Positions 34,468 to 41,572 are shown, counted from the first letter of the stretch. The stretch: 42,168 bases of DNA from Nitrosarchaeum sp. (GCA_023265135.1 JAHFUM010000001.1:48406-90573); one strand, 5' to 3'. Notes: generated by a model not told the origin, from the letters alone. Translations and numbers: made by a program.

Positions 34468-35298
34468 TTGAGCGTAAAAATGATGAATACTCATCTATCG
34501 GTGTTTACCTTATCTGCAATTTTTATTGCAAGTATTGTAATAGCACCAGCATTTGGACAAACAGCGGAGTCAATCGTTGTTACTACAGACAAACCATCTT
34601 ATGAAGAGGGCAATACAATCTTAGTAACGGGAGAAGTTAGAGAACTTCTTTCAGATTTTCCTGTCAGTCTCAAAGTAATAGCACCTAATGGCAACATAGT
34701 AAAAATTGCACAAATTACTGTTGGTTTAGACAAAAAATTCAGTTCTGAACTAGTAGCAGGTGGACCACTTATGAGATCAGGAGGAACATATACGGTTGAA
34801 GTACTCTATGGAACTGAATCTCGTACGTCTCAAACCACATTTACATTTGCGGGTTCAACAGGAACACCAAGTAAAGGATCAACAATCGCAGTTACAGGTA
34901 CTGACTTTATGGTCAACTACAAGATAACTGGTGGTAAGCTTGTTAGCATTACTCCTGATGTAGAAGCACACTCTCTGATTATAGCAATAACTGCAGATCA
35001 GGATGGTTCACTTGTCATTACGTTACCAAGATCTTTGATTGATGCAAAGATGGGTGATCAGGATGATACATTCTTTGTCTTAGTAGACGGGGAAGAAGTT
35101 AACTTTGAGGAAACAACAACATCTACAGATAGAACACTGACAATACAATTCCCCGCAGGTGCTGAGCAAATCGAGATAATTGGTACCTTCGTAGTCCCAG
35201 AATTCGGTACAATCGCAGTTATGATTCTAGCAGTGGCAATTATATCAATAATTGCAGTATCTGCAAAATCAAGACTAAGCATTATGCCAAGATACTAA
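34468..35298 (+). CDS. PEFG-CTERM surface protein, copy A
   Basis: A secreted protein of 276 residues (from TTG 34468; starting at ATG 34480 would remove four). Signal peptide to about residue 30 (ending PAFGQ), an Ig-like domain (KPSYEEGNTILVTGEVRELL ... GGTYTVEVLYG), then a second beta-rich domain (NYKITGGKLVSITPDVEAHS; DGSLVITLPRSLIDAK; FFVLVDGEEV). The C-terminus is the PEFG-CTERM signal: PEFG (244-247), a hydrophobic helix and a basic end (SAKSRLSIMPRY). Such tails are thought to be recognised by thaumarchaeal archaeosortases. It is divergent from rpoH. Role unknown; probably cell-surface. Confidence 0.9.
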   Translation: MSVKMMNTHLSVFTLSAIFIASIVIAPAFGQTAESIVVTTDKPSYEEGNTILVTGEVRELLSDFPVSLKVIAPNGNIVKIAQITVGLDKKFSSELVAGGPLMRSGGTYTVEVLYGTESRTSQTTFTFAGSTGTPSKGSTIAVTGTDFMVNYKITGGKLVSITPDVEAHSLIIAITADQDGSLVITLPRSLIDAKMGDQDDTFFVLVDGEEVNFEETTTSTDRTLTIQFPAGAEQIEIIGTFVVPEFGTIAVMILAVAIISIIAVSAKSRLSIMPRY

Positions 35299-35312
35299 AT
35301 TCATCTTTTTTC
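35206..35312 (+). repeat. PEFG 3'-end repeat, copy A
   Basis: The 107 bp from GGTACAATCGCAGTT to just past the stop codon are identical to 36122-36228 in copy B. The part up to 35303 is also identical in copy C. Confidence 0.95.
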
Positions 35313-35320
35313 TCTTTTTA
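35301..35320 (+). terminator. T-rich terminator of PEFG gene A
   Basis: TCATCTTTTTTCTCTTTTTA follows the stop codon directly, with no hairpin. Confidence 0.5.
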
Positions 35321-35347: not shown

Positions 35348-36214
35348 TTGCAAATTAGAATGGGTTTTAAACGTTCAACAACATCAATGATGCTTGCCCT
35401 AATGGCAATATCAATAATTTCAATTACTTCAATACAGCAGAATGCTTTTGCTCAAAGTACTGGAATGTCAATTTCAGCTACAGCCTCAGAAGGTTCAGAT
35501 ACTATATCAGTTAGTGGACATACAAGATCACAAATTACAGACATGACATTTACAGTGATGTCTCCAAGTCTAAATGTAGTCAGTATTGATCAAGTAACAC
35601 CTGATGCAAATGGTGATTTTGCCACAGTATTCAAAGTAAATTCAATGTGGAAAGAAAGTGGATTTTATACAATTAAGGCAGAACAAAGTCCACATGGAAG
35701 TTCATTGTATAAAGCATCACTTCGTGTAGAAGTAATCAATGGTAGAACTTCAGAAACAGATGTAACTGAATCTACTTTAGAAACCGGATTTCTTGAGCCA
35801 AAAACTACAGTAAAAACAGGTTTAGTAATTAAAGAAGCAAATTCCATGGCAGGATCTAAAACAATTGCAATAATTGGAACTACAGACAGCATTAGTACTA
35901 TTACAATAAAGGTATTAGCACCAAATGGTAATGTTGTTACTGCAGATCAATTTGCACCGGTTCTGGATCAAAATGGTCATTTTCTTAAAGACATTACAAC
36001 TGGAGGTCCATTATGGAATCAAGATGGGCAATATACAATTGTAGCTCAACAAGGTAATGATCCTAAATACAAGTATTCTATTGAAGTCGGAATAAAAGAT
36101 GGTGTTGTAATTCCAGAATTTGGTACAATCGCAGTTATGATTCTAGCAGTGGCAATTATATCAATAATTGCAGTATCTGCAAAATCAAGACTAAGCATTA
36201 TGCCAAGATACTAA
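35348..36214 (+). CDS. PEFG-CTERM surface protein, copy B
   Basis: A secreted protein of 288 residues from TTG 35348 (MQIRMGFKRSTT); an internal ATG at 35360 is an equally plausible start. The TTG aligns with the only downstream start available to copy D. Signal peptide to about residue 36 (NAFAQS). Two Ig-like domains, about 38-130 and 160-250, share the pattern ...PNGNVVTADQFAP... / GGPLWNQDGQYTIVAQQGND with copies A, C and D, but the second beta domain of A and C is replaced. PEFG is at 256-259, followed by a helix and tail identical to the other copies. The 3' DNA is identical to C over 115 bp. Confidence 0.88.
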   Translation: MQIRMGFKRSTTSMMLALMAISIISITSIQQNAFAQSTGMSISATASEGSDTISVSGHTRSQITDMTFTVMSPSLNVVSIDQVTPDANGDFATVFKVNSMWKESGFYTIKAEQSPHGSSLYKASLRVEVINGRTSETDVTESTLETGFLEPKTTVKTGLVIKEANSMAGSKTIAIIGTTDSISTITIKVLAPNGNVVTADQFAPVLDQNGHFLKDITTGGPLWNQDGQYTIVAQQGNDPKYKYSIEVGIKDGVVIPEFGTIAVMILAVAIISIIAVSAKSRLSIMPRY

Positions 36215-36228
36215 ATTCATCTTTTTTC
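36105..36228 (+). repeat. PEFG 3'-end repeat, copy B
   Basis: 36105-36219 is identical to 41434-41548 (115 bp, copy C); 36122-36228 is identical to 35206-35312 (107 bp, copy A). It covers the PEFG signal, membrane helix, stop codon and the first untranslated bases. Confidence 0.95.
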
Positions 36229-36235
36229 ATTTTTT
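36216..36235 (+). terminator. T-rich terminator of PEFG gene B
   Basis: Two T-runs (CTTTTTTCATTTTTT) follow the stop codon and abut the left 39-bp inverted repeat. Confidence 0.5.
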
Positions 36236-36274
36236 AAGATTCTGTGTAATCTATGAGGCTTGATGTGAGATCTT
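36236..36274. repeat. 39-bp inverted repeat, left copy
   Basis: Begins AAGATTCTGTGTAATC and ends TGTGAGATCTT; exact reverse complement of 40609-40647. Similarity continues inward to about 36300 with changes (TGTTTATTG, CGAGACC). Each copy has AAGAT/ATCTT at its own ends. Confidence 0.93.
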
Positions 36275-36304
36275 TTCCGTGTTTATTGTCGAGACCTGAG
36301 CATA

Positions 36305-36688
36305 TCACTTCTGAATCATACTAGACAGCACATTTTGTGGCATCATTTTTGAAATGATATATTGGACAGAAATAGGTTTTTTGTGTATTGAATAGACTCC
36401 CTGACTCTTAAGGAATTGTATTTGAAATTCTTCCAATTCAAGTGCGGACACAATTACCACTTTTCTAATCTCAGATGGTCTGTTAATTTTTAGGTCTGCA
36501 ATAAATTCAAAGCCAGTATAGTAAGGCATTCCCAGATCCAGCAAAATCACATCGTAATTATTTTTTAATACCAATTCCAGCCCATTTTTACCGTCAGTTG
36601 TGCTCTCAAATTCATGGTCTGACATGGATAAGATATCTGAAAAGATTGAACTGATTTGAGGACAGTCTTCAATGTGAAGAATCTTCAT
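36305..36688 (-). CDS. Stand-alone receiver-domain response regulator
   Basis: A CheY-like single domain of 127 residues from the ATG at 36688 (MKILHIEDCPQISSIFSDIL). The frame extends 25 codons upstream, but those codons do not resemble the family. The phosphoacceptor is D51 (DVILLDLGMP), with the acidic pair E7/D8 and the conserved Lys of the HKKPIS motif near the C-terminus. The T/S position is in VVIVSALE. There is no output domain, so it must act by protein contact or in a phosphorelay. No histidine kinase is nearby. It is the first gene inside the left inverted repeat. Confidence 0.9.
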   Translation of the reverse strand: MKILHIEDCPQISSIFSDILSMSDHEFESTTDGKNGLELVLKNNYDVILLDLGMPYYTGFEFIADLKINRPSEIRKVVIVSALELEEFQIQFLKSQGVYSIHKKPISVQYIISKMMPQNVLSSMIQK

Positions 36689-36937
36689 AAGGTATGAACC
36701 ACACAAAGTAGTATAAAATAATGTTTGTTCAAATGCACACACATACCTTGTAACATTAATCAATCAGGCATATGACTAGGTTCTAAACTTTAGAGCCTAA
36801 GATTCTCATGTCCCGATCCTTGATAGAGAGAATATGTCTCATGAATTTAACAGTACCAAGGAAAGAAAGACTTTTAGTTCACCAATAAAAATAAAAAAAA
36901 GAAGGATTGGTTAGTTGATTCTTTAATTCATAAAGAA

Positions 36938-37078
36938 TTACTTGATCTTGAAGAAGGTAACCTTCTGATCAAAGCATTGTGGTGCTTTGTCAACTACGGT
37001 ACAATCGGTTCCAGTAGGCGTGTCTTGACAGACATAGGTTACTTCTTTGTTTTTACATGAACAGTTATCTGACTCCAT
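36938..37078 (-). CDS. 46-residue Cys-rich protein
   Basis: A short gene with ATG at 37078 and a strong ribosome site GGAGGTG about eight bases upstream. The protein begins MESDNCSCKNKEVTYVCQDT and contains five Cys (6, 8, 17, 26, 35). The spacing C-x-C ... C ... C ... C might bind a metal or form disulphides. No signal peptide. Not recognised. The strong ribosome site and clean length argue it is real. It lies between the response regulator and the Fic gene, all on the minus strand. Confidence 0.65.
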   Translation of the reverse strand: MESDNCSCKNKEVTYVCQDTPTGTDCTVVDKAPQCFDQKVTFFKIK

Positions 37079-37165
37079 ATTTCATTCCACCTCCTATGAC
37101 TGCAAAATAGGCAATCACTGAAATACAGTTGTTATTTGATTTGTTTGAATGTAGAATCATCATTT

Positions 37166-38326
37166 TTAACCTCTTAAACTATCTTCAATCTCTTTTGCAT
37201 GGAATACTTTACTTCTGAAATACATTTTGACTTCTTCTAATATTCCAACTTCTACTAATGTCTGAACTGCATTTTTTGCAGAAGGATAGGTAAGATGGAG
37301 ACATTGTTGAGCACGTGGAACTGTCATGTATGGGTTTTCAAATAAATAATCGAGTAAGAGTATAGCACTACCACTTGCACGTTTTGTCATGAGTTTTTCT
37401 TTGTATTTCTTTTGTAAATCTATCAACATATGAATATTTTTTATTGTTAGATCTGCTTGTTCCATCATAGCTTGTAAGAAAAACTTTATCCATTCTCTCC
37501 ATTTACTTTTTTGACTGATTGCTAATAATCCATTGTAATATTCTTTAATGTTTTTTTCAAAATATGCACTAAGATAAAGCAGGGGTTGTGGAAGTATGTC
37601 TTTTTCTGCTAATAGTAATGAAATTAAAACTCTACCAATTCTTCCATTACCATCAGCAAAAGGATGTATGGCTTCAAACTGATAATGCAATATTGCACAT
37701 TGAATTAGTACAGGCATATCTTCGGGAGGATTAGTGAAAAAACTTCCCAAGTTTTCTAATAATTCATCTAAATATTCTGGTGGTGGCGGTGTATATACTG
37801 CATTTTTTGCAGATTCTCCATACGGGACAATCCAATTTTGAATTTTTCTAAATTCACCAGTCTTTTTATCGTATCCTCGTACACCTAACATCAATGTTTT
37901 ATGTGCTCGTTTTATCATTTCTAGAGTGATCTTTTCTTTATTTGATTTTATAAGATCTAGATTATCTTGAAGTGTGTGCATGTAATTAATAACTTCATGA
38001 AGTCTTAGTCGATCTGATTCCTGTTCTCCAATATTTCCTATCGCTTCATATTGAAGAACATCTTGCATTGATGCCAACGTACCTTCTATTTTTGAACTAA
38101 TTACTGCCTCACGTCTTAGATATGGTCTGATGAGTGTGTTTGGATTTGTTAAAAGTTCTCCTATCCCCTTCAATTCTCCTACTTTCACCTCTGTTTTTGC
38201 TAGTAAGTTAATTAGTTCATGATCATAGTAAAATTGAGGCGGAAGGAATTTGGGCACAAAAGCAGATACGCCTTCATCACTGATCAAAATTCTACCATTT
38301 GGTTTCGTAAATTGCTCTGCTTTCAT
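37166..38326 (-). CDS. Fic-family protein (AMPylase-like)
   Basis: Fic proteins transfer AMP, or another nucleotide-derived group, to target hydroxyls. The 386 residues include an N-terminal Fic_N-like region with the inhibitory motif SSKIEG (77-82; S/TxxxE[G/N], class II), and the catalytic HPFADGNGRIGR (221-232), matching HxFx[D/E]GNGRxxR fully. A flap with Tyr/Pro-rich sequence lies near 178-185 (VYTPPPPEYL) and a winged-helix-like C-terminal domain at about 315-380 (MTVPRAQQCLHLTYPSAKNA). Target unknown. Such genes often travel on mobile DNA; here it sits inside the inverted-repeat island. Confidence 0.93.
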   Translation of the reverse strand: MKAEQFTKPNGRILISDEGVSAFVPKFLPPQFYYDHELINLLAKTEVKVGELKGIGELLTNPNTLIRPYLRREAVISSKIEGTLASMQDVLQYEAIGNIGEQESDRLRLHEVINYMHTLQDNLDLIKSNKEKITLEMIKRAHKTLMLGVRGYDKKTGEFRKIQNWIVPYGESAKNAVYTPPPPEYLDELLENLGSFFTNPPEDMPVLIQCAILHYQFEAIHPFADGNGRIGRVLISLLLAEKDILPQPLLYLSAYFEKNIKEYYNGLLAISQKSKWREWIKFFLQAMMEQADLTIKNIHMLIDLQKKYKEKLMTKRASGSAILLLDYLFENPYMTVPRAQQCLHLTYPSAKNAVQTLVEVGILEEVKMYFRSKVFHAKEIEDSLRG

Positions 38327-38489
38327 TTTTTGATCACCAGATCGTTAAACGGAACATTAACTAACAGTGGTTTAATTAAAGATAAACACATATTACTTTA
38401 ATAAACGTGAGTATTACTTATAAAGATTATTGTTATTTTATAGGGGAGTAGTAGTAATATGAGGGGTACCGTACTATACAGGTACTCGT

Positions 38490-38627
38490 TCAGGTTTTCT
38501 TTAGTTCTTCTTCAAGCGCTGTATTTAGTAGATCAGTTACAGTTATACCACGTTTTATTGCGGTAATCTTTGCTTTTTTCCAAATATCTTCATCTATCTT
38601 AATTGATGTAACTAATTTTTTCCCCAT
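38490..38627 (-). CDS. Ribbon-helix-helix (CopG/Arc-type) protein
   Basis: A 45-residue protein, MGKKLVTSIKIDEDIWKKAK at the N-terminus, with a beta strand (KLVTSIKID), helix A (EDIWKKAKITAIKRG) and helix B (TDLLNTALEEEL). This is the RHH fold of small DNA-binding repressors and antitoxins. It starts 76 bp from the divergent transposase gene; that spacer contains a 16-bp palindrome that overlaps the transposase start. It probably binds there and represses the transposase, itself, or both. Confidence 0.82.
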   Translation of the reverse strand: MGKKLVTSIKIDEDIWKKAKITAIKRGITVTDLLNTALEEELKKT

Positions 38628-38644
38628 TCAGATTATCTTTATTA

Positions 38645-38705
38645 TTAGTAGTATTTAATATTTTTAGTATAAACTAATATACTACTACAATACTACTAGT
38701 AGTAT
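38645..38705. promoter_or_regulatory. TACTACTA operator-like cluster with 16-bp palindrome
   Basis: The spacer between the RHH gene and the transposase contains TTAGTAGTAT (38645 on), ATACTACTACA (38679 on) and the perfect palindrome ATACTACTAGTAGTAT (38690-38705), which covers the transposase ATG. Another GAGTAGTAGTAATAT is at about 38444-38458, just past the RHH stop. Multiple half sites fit RHH repressors. Confidence 0.55.
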
Positions 38706-39822
38706 GGAAATTAACTCTCGTGAAATCAAAGGAAAACAAATAACTGAAAAAAACAATCAGATCAAAAGAATTGATTCAAATCATTACAAGGTAAAATCAC
38801 AATCAAGCAATAATGAATACGATGTTATCTCCACCGAATCAGGATTTTTTTGTTCTTGTCTTGATCATCAATTTAGAAAAGTCTGTTGTAAACACATTCA
38901 CGCAGTAGAGATCAGTTTAGAGATTAGAAAGAAAGTAGAACAACAAATTACAATTAATCCAATAGAAAATAATAATTGTAAATTCTGCAATTCAAACAAT
39001 ATCATCAAAAAAGGAATTAGAAAAAACACAAACTATTCCATTCAGGTTTTCTTATGCAAAGACTGTGACAAGAAATTCTCTATCAATCTAGGATTTGAAA
39101 AGATGAAAGCAAGTCCTCAAATTATTACTTCTGCAATGCAGTTGTATTTTACAGGTGAATCACTAAGAAATACACAAAAATTCTTGGAATTACAAAGTAT
39201 TAAAATTACTCACAAAACTGTCTGGAATTGGATTAAAAAATATACAAATCTAATGGAAAAATACCTAGAACAGATCACTCCTCAAGTTTCGGACAAATGG
39301 AGAACTGATGAACTCTATTTGAAAATAAAAGGAAATAGAAAATATCTTTATGCAATGATGGATGATGAGACTAGATTTTGGATAGCAAAACAGGTATCAG
39401 ACAGCAAGTACACAGAAGATGTAAGACCGCTATTTAGAAAGAGTATAGAGGTAACAGGAAAGAAGCCAAAAATACTCATTTCTGAGGGGGCTAGAAATTT
39501 CATGCAAGCCCACAAAAAAGAATGGTACTCAAATTACAAAAATGAGAAGGTTACACATATCAGACATATCCATTTCAAGGGTGATAAAAATAACAATAAA
39601 ATGGAACGCCTGAACGGTGAGATGAGAGACAGAGAAAAGACAATGCGTTCTCTGAAAAAAGATGATTCTCCAATAATAACATGTATGCAGATTCATCATA
39701 ATTACATTAGAACCCATATGGCATTAAACAATGATACTCCAGCAGATAGGGCAGGAATCAAGATCAATGGTAATAACAAATGGATAACCTTAATTCAAAA
39801 CGCAACAAAAGCAAATAATTGA
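38704..39822 (+). CDS. IS6/IS240-like transposase with N-terminal SWIM zinc finger
   Basis: A 372-residue DDE-type transposase. N-terminal SWIM finger C50-x-C52 ... C62-x-H64, then a zinc ribbon with C92, C95, C118 and C121 (CKFC ... CKDC), a helix-turn-helix region (about 145-180), and the catalytic core: D202 (RTDELYLKIKG), the second position in ILISEGARNF where Glu261 stands in place of the expected Asp, and E301 (NNKMERLNGE). The C-terminal HHNYIRTHMALNNDTPADRA is typical. The missing second Asp suggests lost or altered activity. The stop overlaps the start of the next membrane-protein gene (TTGA). No clear terminal inverted repeats were found. Confidence 0.88.
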   Translation: MEINSREIKGKQITEKNNQIKRIDSNHYKVKSQSSNNEYDVISTESGFFCSCLDHQFRKVCCKHIHAVEISLEIRKKVEQQITINPIENNNCKFCNSNNIIKKGIRKNTNYSIQVFLCKDCDKKFSINLGFEKMKASPQIITSAMQLYFTGESLRNTQKFLELQSIKITHKTVWNWIKKYTNLMEKYLEQITPQVSDKWRTDELYLKIKGNRKYLYAMMDDETRFWIAKQVSDSKYTEDVRPLFRKSIEVTGKKPKILISEGARNFMQAHKKEWYSNYKNEKVTHIRHIHFKGDKNNNKMERLNGEMRDREKTMRSLKKDDSPIITCMQIHHNYIRTHMALNNDTPADRAGIKINGNNKWITLIQNATKANN

Positions 39823-40184
39823 ACATTGTAGATGAACTAAGTGTATGGTTGATCTGGTGGCTCATTGAAATATTGATTTTAGTATTAGTTCTAATTAGAA
39901 ATAATTTGATGGGAAAACAAGATAGAAAACGATATGTTTTAGACAAATGGGAAAAGCACGCAGTAATTGTTATGATGATAACAATAATCTTAATCGGAAT
40001 TACAAGTATGATAAATGATGATAAATGGCGTAACATGACATCTATCTTTTATGCTGTTTTATTTTTTACAGGTGGTCTTTGGATTAGCAGAAAATTCAAC
40101 GATGATACAAATACAAAATTAGAGATTATTGATGATCGATTAAAAAGAATACAAGAACGACTTGATGGATTATATAAAAAATGA
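39819..40184 (+). CDS. Small two-helix membrane protein
   Basis: A 121-residue protein from a TTG that overlaps the transposase stop. Three hydrophobic stretches (about 8-27, 48-65 and 74-90), with a basic segment between the first two (MGKQDRKRYVLDKWEK) and a charged coiled-coil-like C-terminus (TKLEIIDDRLKRIQERLDGL). Not recognised. The overlap implies coupling to the transposase gene or chance insertion. Confidence 0.65.
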   Translation: MNIVDELSVWLIWWLIEILILVLVLIRNNLMGKQDRKRYVLDKWEKHAVIVMMITIILIGITSMINDDKWRNMTSIFYAVLFFTGGLWISRKFNDDTNTKLEIIDDRLKRIQERLDGLYKK

Positions 40185-40205
40185 TGAAATATGTGGTCGT
40201 TTCTG

Positions 40206-40256
40206 GTTAATGGAAATAATAAGTGAATAACCTTAATTCAGAGTGTAAGACAAAGT
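40206..40256 (+). pseudogene. Remnant of a transposase 3' end
   Basis: Reading GTTAATGGAAATAATAAG onward gives V-N-G-N-N-K, a stop, then ITLIQS, matching the end of the transposase (INGNNKWITLIQNATKA; DNA 39763-39815). Fourteen bases (ATAACCTTAATTCA) are identical. TGA replaces the Trp codon. Nothing upstream of it is recognisable as transposase. Confidence 0.7.
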
Positions 40257-40262
40257 GATTCT

Positions 40263-40550
40263 ATGCTATTATCTATAATATCATTAATTGCCATTGCATT
40301 AGGAACTGGTTTTCTAGGAAAAGCCACTATTGTATCAAAAAAAGATGCTATTGAATTAGGAGTATCACGTATAGCCGGAGATACAGATGAGGAAAATCTA
40401 AAACTTCCAGCGGTTCAATTCTTTCTAAAACAGAGTCACTTAGCACGGATTGGATTGGCAATAGTTGTATTAGGGATCTTATTACAGGTTGTTTTATTGG
40501 TATTTCCTGCCATTGAATTAACTCTAGATACTTTTTTACAGATTGTTTAA
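40263..40550 (+). CDS. Small membrane protein
   Basis: A 95-residue protein with an N-terminal hydrophobic helix (LLSIISLIAIALGTGFLG), a polar middle (KKDAIELGVSRIAGDTDEEN) and a second helix (IGLAIVVLGILLQVVLLVF). No family recognised. Its start lies 54 bp past the transposase-remnant match, almost the same offset as the other membrane gene has from the intact transposase. Confidence 0.6.
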   Translation: MLLSIISLIAIALGTGFLGKATIVSKKDAIELGVSRIAGDTDEENLKLPAVQFFLKQSHLARIGLAIVVLGILLQVVLLVFPAIELTLDTFLQIV

Positions 40551-40608
40551 GATTCAACAGAGATTTAACAAGTTCAAAAAACTCTGGGTCTCGCAAGTAA
40601 ACAAAGAG

Positions 40609-40647
40609 AAGATCTCACATCAAGCCTCATAGATTACACAGAATCTT
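40609..40647. repeat. 39-bp inverted repeat, right copy
   Basis: Begins AAGATCTCACATCAAG and ends CACAGAATCTT; exact reverse complement of 36236-36274. It ends immediately before the TATA region of PEFG gene C. Weaker similarity continues inward to about 40585. Confidence 0.93.
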
Positions 40648-40666
40648 TTTTAAATATACATAAATA
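40648..40666 (+). promoter_or_regulatory. TATA box for PEFG gene C
   Basis: TTTAAATATACATAAATA ends 25 bp before the ATG at 40692, adjoining the right inverted repeat. The sequence TTTGCAAATAAGATG follows, related to the leader of copy B. Confidence 0.5.
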
Positions 40667-40691: not shown

Positions 40692-41543
40692 ATGAATAAC
40701 CGTACGTCGTTCGCGCTATTAGCCGTTTTGACTGCAGTCGGTACTTTAACCATGTCATCAGCATATGCTCAGGCATGTGTGGGTTGTGAAGAAGTAGATG
40801 CTGGAAAAAAAGCAGCAGATCAGATGTTGCTTATGGATATTCCAGTGTCTGTTTGGACAGATAAAACAACCTATGACCATAATGACAAAATTATAGTACA
40901 CGGTAAAGTAGCAAACGTTTCTGGATTTCCAGTAACACTTACTGTTGTGAATCCATTAAATTCCGTCATTACAATTGCTCAAGTAGAGGTTGACAATAGC
41001 GGTAATTTTGGAACAACTTTCAACACAGAAGGTGGATTATGGAAACATAATGGTACATACACCATTAAAGCCAACTATGGAACCACTCAAAAAAGTAATA
41101 AAGTGATTGTTGAGCTAACCGGTGAATTTTTAACGAGCTCAGGCAATTGTGCATCTTCAGAGATACACCTAGAGGGCGATTATTGTGTACCATATAGTAT
41201 TACAGGAGGAATGGTAAAGGATGCAAGCATAAGTAATAACGATAAATCCATTATCGTTAGAATTAGTGCAAATGAAGATGGAACACTCACATTAAATCCA
41301 GACGAATCAATTCTCAAAGGTATCTTCATGGTACTTGTGGATGGACAAGAATGGAATGATGTGAAAATTAGTGGTAATGAAGTTACAGTAATGTTCCCAG
41401 CAGGCACTGAAAAGATTCAAGTAATAGGTACTTTTGTAATTCCAGAATTTGGTACAATCGCAGTTATGATTCTAGCAGTGGCAATTATATCAATAATTGC
41501 AGTATCTGCAAAATCAAGACTAAGCATTATGCCAAGATACTAA
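40692..41543 (+). CDS. PEFG-CTERM surface protein, copy C
   Basis: A secreted protein of 283 residues from ATG 40692; the upstream TTG that copy B could use is followed here by an in-frame TGA. Signal peptide to about residue 26 (SSAYAQ), then a Cys pair (ACVGCEE), an Ig-like domain (KTTYDHNDKIIVHGKVANVS ... NGTYTIKANYG), a beta domain with another Cys pair (SGNCASSEIHLEGDYCVPYS; MVLVDGQEW), PEFG (251-254) and the shared helix and tail. The extra Cys residues, absent from A and B, may form disulphides outside the cell. Confidence 0.9.
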   Translation: MNNRTSFALLAVLTAVGTLTMSSAYAQACVGCEEVDAGKKAADQMLLMDIPVSVWTDKTTYDHNDKIIVHGKVANVSGFPVTLTVVNPLNSVITIAQVEVDNSGNFGTTFNTEGGLWKHNGTYTIKANYGTTQKSNKVIVELTGEFLTSSGNCASSEIHLEGDYCVPYSITGGMVKDASISNNDKSIIVRISANEDGTLTLNPDESILKGIFMVLVDGQEWNDVKISGNEVTVMFPAGTEKIQVIGTFVIPEFGTIAVMILAVAIISIIAVSAKSRLSIMPRY

Positions 41544-41548
41544 ATTCA
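41434..41548 (+). repeat. PEFG 3'-end repeat, copy C
   Basis: The 115 bp are identical to 36105-36219 in copy B and include the end of the gene and five bases past the stop. Confidence 0.95.
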
Positions 41549-41572
41549 CAACTTTTTTCATTTTTTCATTTT
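41546..41572 (+). terminator. T-rich terminator of PEFG gene C
   Basis: Three T-runs (CTTTTTTCATTTTTTCATTTT) follow the stop codon with no hairpin. Confidence 0.5.

Follow-up and report, generated by a model that had tools for sequence, protein, structure and literature searches.

An IS6-like transposon island between PEFG-CTERM genes of Nitrosarchaeum and the probable insertion of its family at a fixed distance upstream of archaeal core promoters

Introduction

Until now, insertion at a set position beside promoters has been known from some bacterial and yeast elements. Ty3 is targeted through TFIIIB, which contains TBP, and most IS6-like elements are regarded as having little target preference. 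The bacterial TnGBS and ISLre2 elements and part of the ISKra4 family have Mutator-like DDE transposases and insert 15-17 bp upstream of the -35 sequence of sigma-A promoters, and only a possible AT-rich preference is given for archaeal ISH6 (PMC3942029). In the available sections of the IS6 reviews, 8-bp duplications and one passenger-bearing member are described and a promoter target is not mentioned (PMC7986276, PMC6807381). For Thaumarchaeota, the available part of a mobile-element survey counts insertion sequences, does not analyse their targets and does not use the word "promoter" (PMC6563490). In the open-licence papers that we searched, we found no description of IS6 elements in Thaumarchaeota or of archaeal transposons that target TATA boxes.

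Here we describe an island in a stretch of Nitrosarchaeum sp. DNA of 42,168 nucleotides (GCA_023265135.1, JAHFUM010000001.1:48406-90573), the whole of which is called the window below. Very probably, the island is an IS6-like DDE transposon with passenger genes, whose family targets a fixed distance upstream of archaeal core promoters. Promoter targeting is a known kind of behaviour, and its archaeal, IS6-like, array-forming version appears to be undescribed in the open-licence literature searched.

Results

Ends of the element and its target duplication

A sequence-only reading of the window had noted exact 39-bp inverted repeats around an island lying between the terminator of gene B and the TATA box of gene C, and had proposed either a mobile unit or an invertible segment. 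The repeats are as described: 36236-36274 and 40609-40647 are perfect reverse complements, and the inverted match continues to 61 bp at 90% identity (36236-36296 and 40587-40647). A chance origin of the 61-bp repeat was rejected, because the longest other inverted pair across the 12-kb region has 29 bp, at 76%. The limits 36236-40647 that had been given to the island are not the ends of the element, however. Comparison with genus mates placed each junction 2 bases further in, and the element proper covers 36238-40645 (4408 bp), with the outermost AA/TT of the 39-bp repeats being bases of the target duplication, outside the element. The suspicion that the flanking T-tracts hide a target-site duplication proved right, as identical copies of the 8-bp TTTTTTAA were found there on both sides of the element (Table 1). 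The element starts with GATTCTGTGTAATC, and its junctions read ...CATTTTTTAA / GATTCTGTGTAATC ... GATTACACAGAATC / TTTTTTAAATATACATAAATAG, compared with ...CATTTTTTAAATATACATAAATAG in the empty sites of genus mates. The placement between the terminator of gene B and the TATA box of gene C also stood, and it is the position that the target rule of the transposon family predicts.

Table 1. Coordinates of the element, its genes and its surroundings in the window.
Feature	Position	Strand	Evidence
Upstream gene B, PEFG-CTERM protein	35348..36214	+	TIGR04296
A-B site CTTTTTAA	35314..35321	.	Empty in window; comparison with relatives
Left target duplication TTTTTTAA	36230..36237	.	Single copy in empty sites of G016, G004, G007, G014
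Left terminal inverted repeat (GATTCTGTGTAATCTATGAGG...)	36238..36296	+	Inverted-repeat comparison
Receiver-only response regulator (passenger)	36305..36763	-	PF00072 Response_reg, E=6.7e-14
Cys-rich 46-aa ORF (passenger)	36938..37078	-	ORF call; no Pfam family
Fic/DOC protein, SoFic-like (passenger)	37166..38326	-	PF02661 and PF13784 (Fic_N) above cut-off
Small RHH protein (passenger)	38490..38627	-	Weak CopG/RHH, antitoxin-like matches
IS6-like DDE transposase	38704..39822	+	PF13610 E=3.2e-13; NF033587 108 bits vs cut-off 125
121-aa membrane-protein ORF (passenger)	39819..40184	+	ORF; no significant family
Transposase 3' tail remnant	40209..40253	+	78% identical to 39766-39810
95-aa membrane-protein ORF (passenger)	40263..40550	+	ORF; no family
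Right terminal inverted repeat	40587..40645	-	Inverted-repeat comparison
Right target duplication TTTTTTAA	40646..40653	.	Same as 36230-36237
TATA octamer CATAAATA of gene C	40659..40666	+	6/8 matches to TTTAWATA, preferred offset
Target gene C, PEFG-CTERM protein	40692..41543	+	TIGR04296

Occupied and empty PEFG sites in relatives

An empty site joining gene B directly to gene C, for which the sequence-only reading had suggested a search among relatives, is present in genus mates G016, G004, G008, G007 and G014. A further nine genus mates (G001, G002, G005, G007, G009, G012, G014, G015 and G017) have an element or scar with the same ends at the A-B or B-C site, positioned on the identical base, in states that range from 4-kb elements with a transposase down to scars of 24-35 bp. 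The A-B site holds related elements in G002, G015 and G017 and remnants in G001, G007 and G014, and three species of another genus (L178, L179 and L235) have related elements at the same PEFG sites. Eleven of the 14 exact matches to the terminal motif in 18 genomes fall within the PEFG array, which goes against the possibility, raised in the same reading, that the 39-bp sequence is widespread between genes as an ordinary element. A 21-bp motif of T-tract and TATA is nearly restricted to the A-B and B-C sites in these 18 genomes.

Long inverted repeats with surface-protein genes on both sides would also suit an invertible segment controlling a surface gene. We consider this extremely improbable: no invertase or site-specific recombinase gene lies between the repeats, the promoter of gene C lies outside them, and the target duplication, the empty sites and the unrelated contents of the elements in relatives show transposition. 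Between the two options first proposed, the 8-bp duplication, the empty sites and the same-base elements elsewhere uphold the mobile unit. The invertible segment is not supported, as species differ in having or lacking whole units with duplicated targets. Judged from these sequence comparisons, the island is a transposon and not an invertible segment.

The elements at A-B are flanked by CTTTTTAA and those at B-C by TTTTTTAA, in each case the local sequence. Because each duplication matches its own site, the two sites received separate insertions, and movement of an element between A-B and B-C by gene conversion was rejected on the same ground. In G002, two elements lie in tandem at A-B, with CTTTTTAA before, between and after them (three copies). 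Occupied and empty sites are mixed in an rpoB tree, where G012 is occupied and its sister G004 empty, and where the B-C site is occupied in G001 and empty in G007 and G014. These patterns bear on whether a single insertion at an ancestral PEFG site was inherited by the genus, its interiors being replaced and the empty sites arising by precise loss. Such a history would agree with the same base and the same duplication in all occupied species, and with the 354 bp that the A-B elements of G015 and G017 have in common at 93.5%. It is very unlikely, however, since the interiors are unrelated except for ends and transposase tails, the G002 elements are stacked, decay elsewhere leaves 24-35 bp scars while the empty sites are scar-free, and insertions at radA and other promoters obey the same rule. 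Within the preferred reading, in which the family transposes into promoter regions, a few A-B or B-C insertions might have been inherited and then lost in sister species instead of having been gained independently.

Transposase and passenger genes

The window transposase has a DDE_Tnp_IS240 domain (PF13610, above cut-off), preceded by N-terminal SWIM-like and C4 zinc motifs, and its best match is the curated IS6 equivalog NF033587. Because its score of 108.3 bits is under the cut-off of 125, we call the transposase IS6-like and do not file it as an IS6 member. The profile searches found the IS240/IS6, IS481 and IS3 families and gave no match to a Mutator-like transposase domain. The family resembles IS6 elements such as IS26 and IS257 in its DDE_Tnp_IS240 domain, and may also resemble them in its 8-bp duplication and its ends (GGTTCTGT in IS6, GATTCTGT here), as far as these are given in the available sections of PMC7986276 and PMC6807381. 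It is unlike them in its transposase of about 370 aa, with zinc motifs at the N-terminus and a score below the NCBIfam IS6 cut-off, in its passengers and size (about 1.9-6.2 kb) and in its promoter target. IS6 ends start with GG and have G at position 7; the relatives have GGTTCTG and the window copy GATTCTG. An 8-bp duplication is present in all called elements, where it was required by the calling, and the empty sites confirm it independently for the window copy. At 4408 bp with passengers, and 1.9-6.2 kb in relatives, the elements exceed the 0.8-0.9 kb of single-gene IS6 elements.

The contents described in the sequence-only reading (receiver, Cys-rich protein, Fic, RHH, transposase, transposase remnant and two membrane proteins) were recovered by profile searches and ORF calls, and its altered transposase was located at the second catalytic Asp, which is Glu at residue 261 (E261) and Asp in 10 of the 10 aligned homologues that cover the position. 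A search of the same genome for a second transposase of the window kind found none. Because of E261 and the lack of another such transposase in its own genome, the window copy is probably inactive or stalled, unable to transpose by itself; its ends are well preserved despite the E261 transposase.

Passengers of other elements include HicA with a HicB-like partner (G002) and a TauE/SafE transporter (G015), and the G012 and G015 elements also carry ORFs without family assignment. Several array elements consist of ends and one passenger (e.g. TauE/SafE) without a transposase, as mobile insertion cassettes and MITE-like carriers do, but several differ from these in keeping a transposase 3' tail. 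Such tails persist without the rest of the gene in the window (40209-40253), in the B-C elements of G012 and G015 and in L047 (at about 2440), often directly after a short left end. The Fic protein matches NF046030 below the cut-off. Three relatives of the receiver gene (36302-36754) with 81-84% DNA identity lie on contigs C11 and C14 of the same genome, which suggests that the element captured a host gene.

Genes A, B and C all encode the PEFG-CTERM sorting domain TIGR04296. Their last 180 nt, including the terminator (35140-35319, 36056-36235 and 41385-41564), are 79-86% alike and the remainder differs, a pattern that suggests gene conversion ending at the insertion site. Between the RHH and Fic genes, a GGTACCGTAC...GGTACTCG motif at 38463-38488 resembles the radA leader; across elements in general, motifs of this kind show no enrichment. 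The GTACGGTA motif, which follows the TATA boxes of radA and gene X and is also present inside the window element, was considered as a part of the mechanism and rejected, as it is not enriched in elements (8 in 190 kb of elements compared with 17 in 394 kb of flanks).

Spacing between insertions and TATA boxes

Elements with a window-type transposase were collected across the family, and 55 were called in a first set; many of the surveyed genomes are metagenome-assembled. Ends were called from the IS6-like terminal motif and an exact 8-bp duplication, without use of TATA information, and TATA boxes were predicted with the simple consensus TTTAWATA at a threshold of at least 6 of 8 matches. Clear element ends were not found in G027 (L120).

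In the first set, 17 of 61 unique flanks have a TATA octamer 5 nt beyond the duplication. Other offsets average 1.7 flanks, with 3 and 6 flanks at offsets 4 and 6, respectively. Among 5000 rotations of the first set, the mean at offset 5 was 2.1 and the maximum 8, and the maximum at any offset was 10. The same analysis was applied to a held-out set of 19 elements belonging to other families within the order and class, where 9 of 34 previously unseen unique flanks have a TATA octamer at offset 5, compared with 0.86 expected, and none of 5000 rotations reached 9. Over all sets, the octamer lies exactly 5 nt beyond the duplication in 42 of 73 elements, and the other 31 have no octamer with at least 6 of 8 matches at this offset. 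Some of these occupy inner positions in arrays or have a weaker TATA box, and others, such as L185, L200 and L208, may reflect miscalled ends or true exceptions.

Across the 73 elements, the duplicated 8-mers vary widely and have no common sequence. In the fitting elements, the duplication mostly ends in a purine, and A/T-rich bases follow it. The BRE consensus is RNWAAW, and this pattern suits a BRE directly before the TATA box. The TATA octamer of gene C also starts at offset 5, and its BRE position is made up of the 5 nt in between and the final base of the duplication. The start codon of the next gene is mostly 34-48 nt beyond the duplication, as expected for archaeal genes that are leaderless or have short leaders.

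Because the insertions are intergenic and leave genes intact, it could be argued that elements insert at random and that only those in harmless gaps upstream of promoters survive selection. Such selection would tolerate a range of positions, but the TATA peak is a single base wide (17 flanks against 3 and 6 at its neighbours) and recurs in other families, and the same base is reused at A-B, B-C and radA. We consider selection after random insertion very improbable as the source of the spacing, and favour targeting by the elements themselves.

Recurrent targets and tandem arrays

Genes hit repeatedly are radA (11 loci of the first set), a gene for a conserved 128-aa protein, PEFG genes, a P1/L12 ribosomal gene and an SSB gene; among those hit once are genes for a TFB, a phosphoesterase, an aquaporin and a threonine synthase-like protein. 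The TFB target is a TFIIB zinc-ribbon gene at L159 (G047:C18, 2905-3081). The 128-aa protein is conserved in Thaumarchaeota and has no Pfam family; its gene, the second recurrent target, has an ...GTACGGTAAGG leader like that of radA. Loci at this GTACGGTAAGG gene are L106, L213, L218, L220 and L177, with remnants in the genus at L056, L057, L062, L066 and L105. Decayed transposase tails in the genus also adjoin radA or the GTACGGTAAGG gene.

In 20 flanks, the end of another element was scored as directly adjoining, usually across a common duplication; one of these (L229) is a weak match. Upstream of radA in G193, four copies of TCGAAACA lie between successive IS6-like elements; this locus (L192, G193:C1:1775000-1794500) has three full intervals of 2338, 4457 and 2487 bp and a further end in the row. 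Terminal inverted repeat matches out of 24 are higher in the promoter-proximal member than in its outer neighbour in three arrays (23 compared with 19, 21 with 17, and 23 with 19), and a fourth is a near tie. Because the TATA-side members have the better preserved ends, the three clear arrays suggest that new elements enter beside the promoter and push older ones outward. The transposase faces the promoter in 25 cases and has the opposite orientation in 19.

Discussion

The sequence of the locus shows that the element moved into the gene C promoter region by transposition, with a duplication of 8 bp. Statistics on related elements show that its family inserts so that the duplication, whatever its sequence, ends 5 nt upstream of a TATA octamer, which puts the insertion point at the upstream border of BRE/TATA. 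Since the core promoter stays intact and the duplication restores the target site, another element can land beside the first. Repeated landing of this kind builds the tandem arrays seen at hotspots such as radA and PEFG genes, with the youngest member probably next to the TATA box, judging from few arrays.

The likeliest means would be promoter recognition by the transposase complex, which may dock on bound TBP/TFB or read the TATA/BRE DNA directly, two routes between which the data do not distinguish. The preference for few promoters fits either promoter occupancy or extra sequence features. Tentatively, and with slightly less than even confidence, we propose that the complex docks on TBP-TFB at the BRE/TATA and integrates at its upstream edge, as a counterpart of Ty3 and TFIIIB, and that hotspots such as radA are promoters that were occupied when the elements transposed. 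Ty3 and other Pol III-targeting retrotransposons resemble the family in position-specific insertion beside a promoter, as described in the available part of PMC5911963; Ty3 is a eukaryotic retroelement, however, and contact with TBP/TFB is a proposal for the archaeal element.

TnGBS, ISLre2 and ISKra4 elements are alike in using DDE transposases, in inserting at a fixed distance upstream of a host promoter that is left intact, and in having nearly symmetric ends and both orientations. They differ from the present family, which has an IS6-like transposase, archaeal TATA/BRE promoters as targets, a 5-nt spacing and recurrent tandem arrays. Thaumarchaeal casposons also have inverted ends, target duplications and reported tandem insertions, but their integrase is Cas1-like and their targets are often protein-coding genes, ef-2 among them, according to the available part of PMC6563490.

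The family is widespread in ammonia-oxidising archaea and seems to recognise archaeal core promoters to the exact base. It brings passengers (toxin-antitoxin-like pairs, regulators and transporters) beside housekeeping and surface-protein genes without disrupting them, and its elements pile up as arrays at few promoters. In organisms for which few genetic tools exist, the insertions naturally mark where promoters lie, and the system lets one ask whether TBP/TFB guide a DDE transposase. Possibly, a promoter-addressed insertion tool for archaea could also be developed from it.
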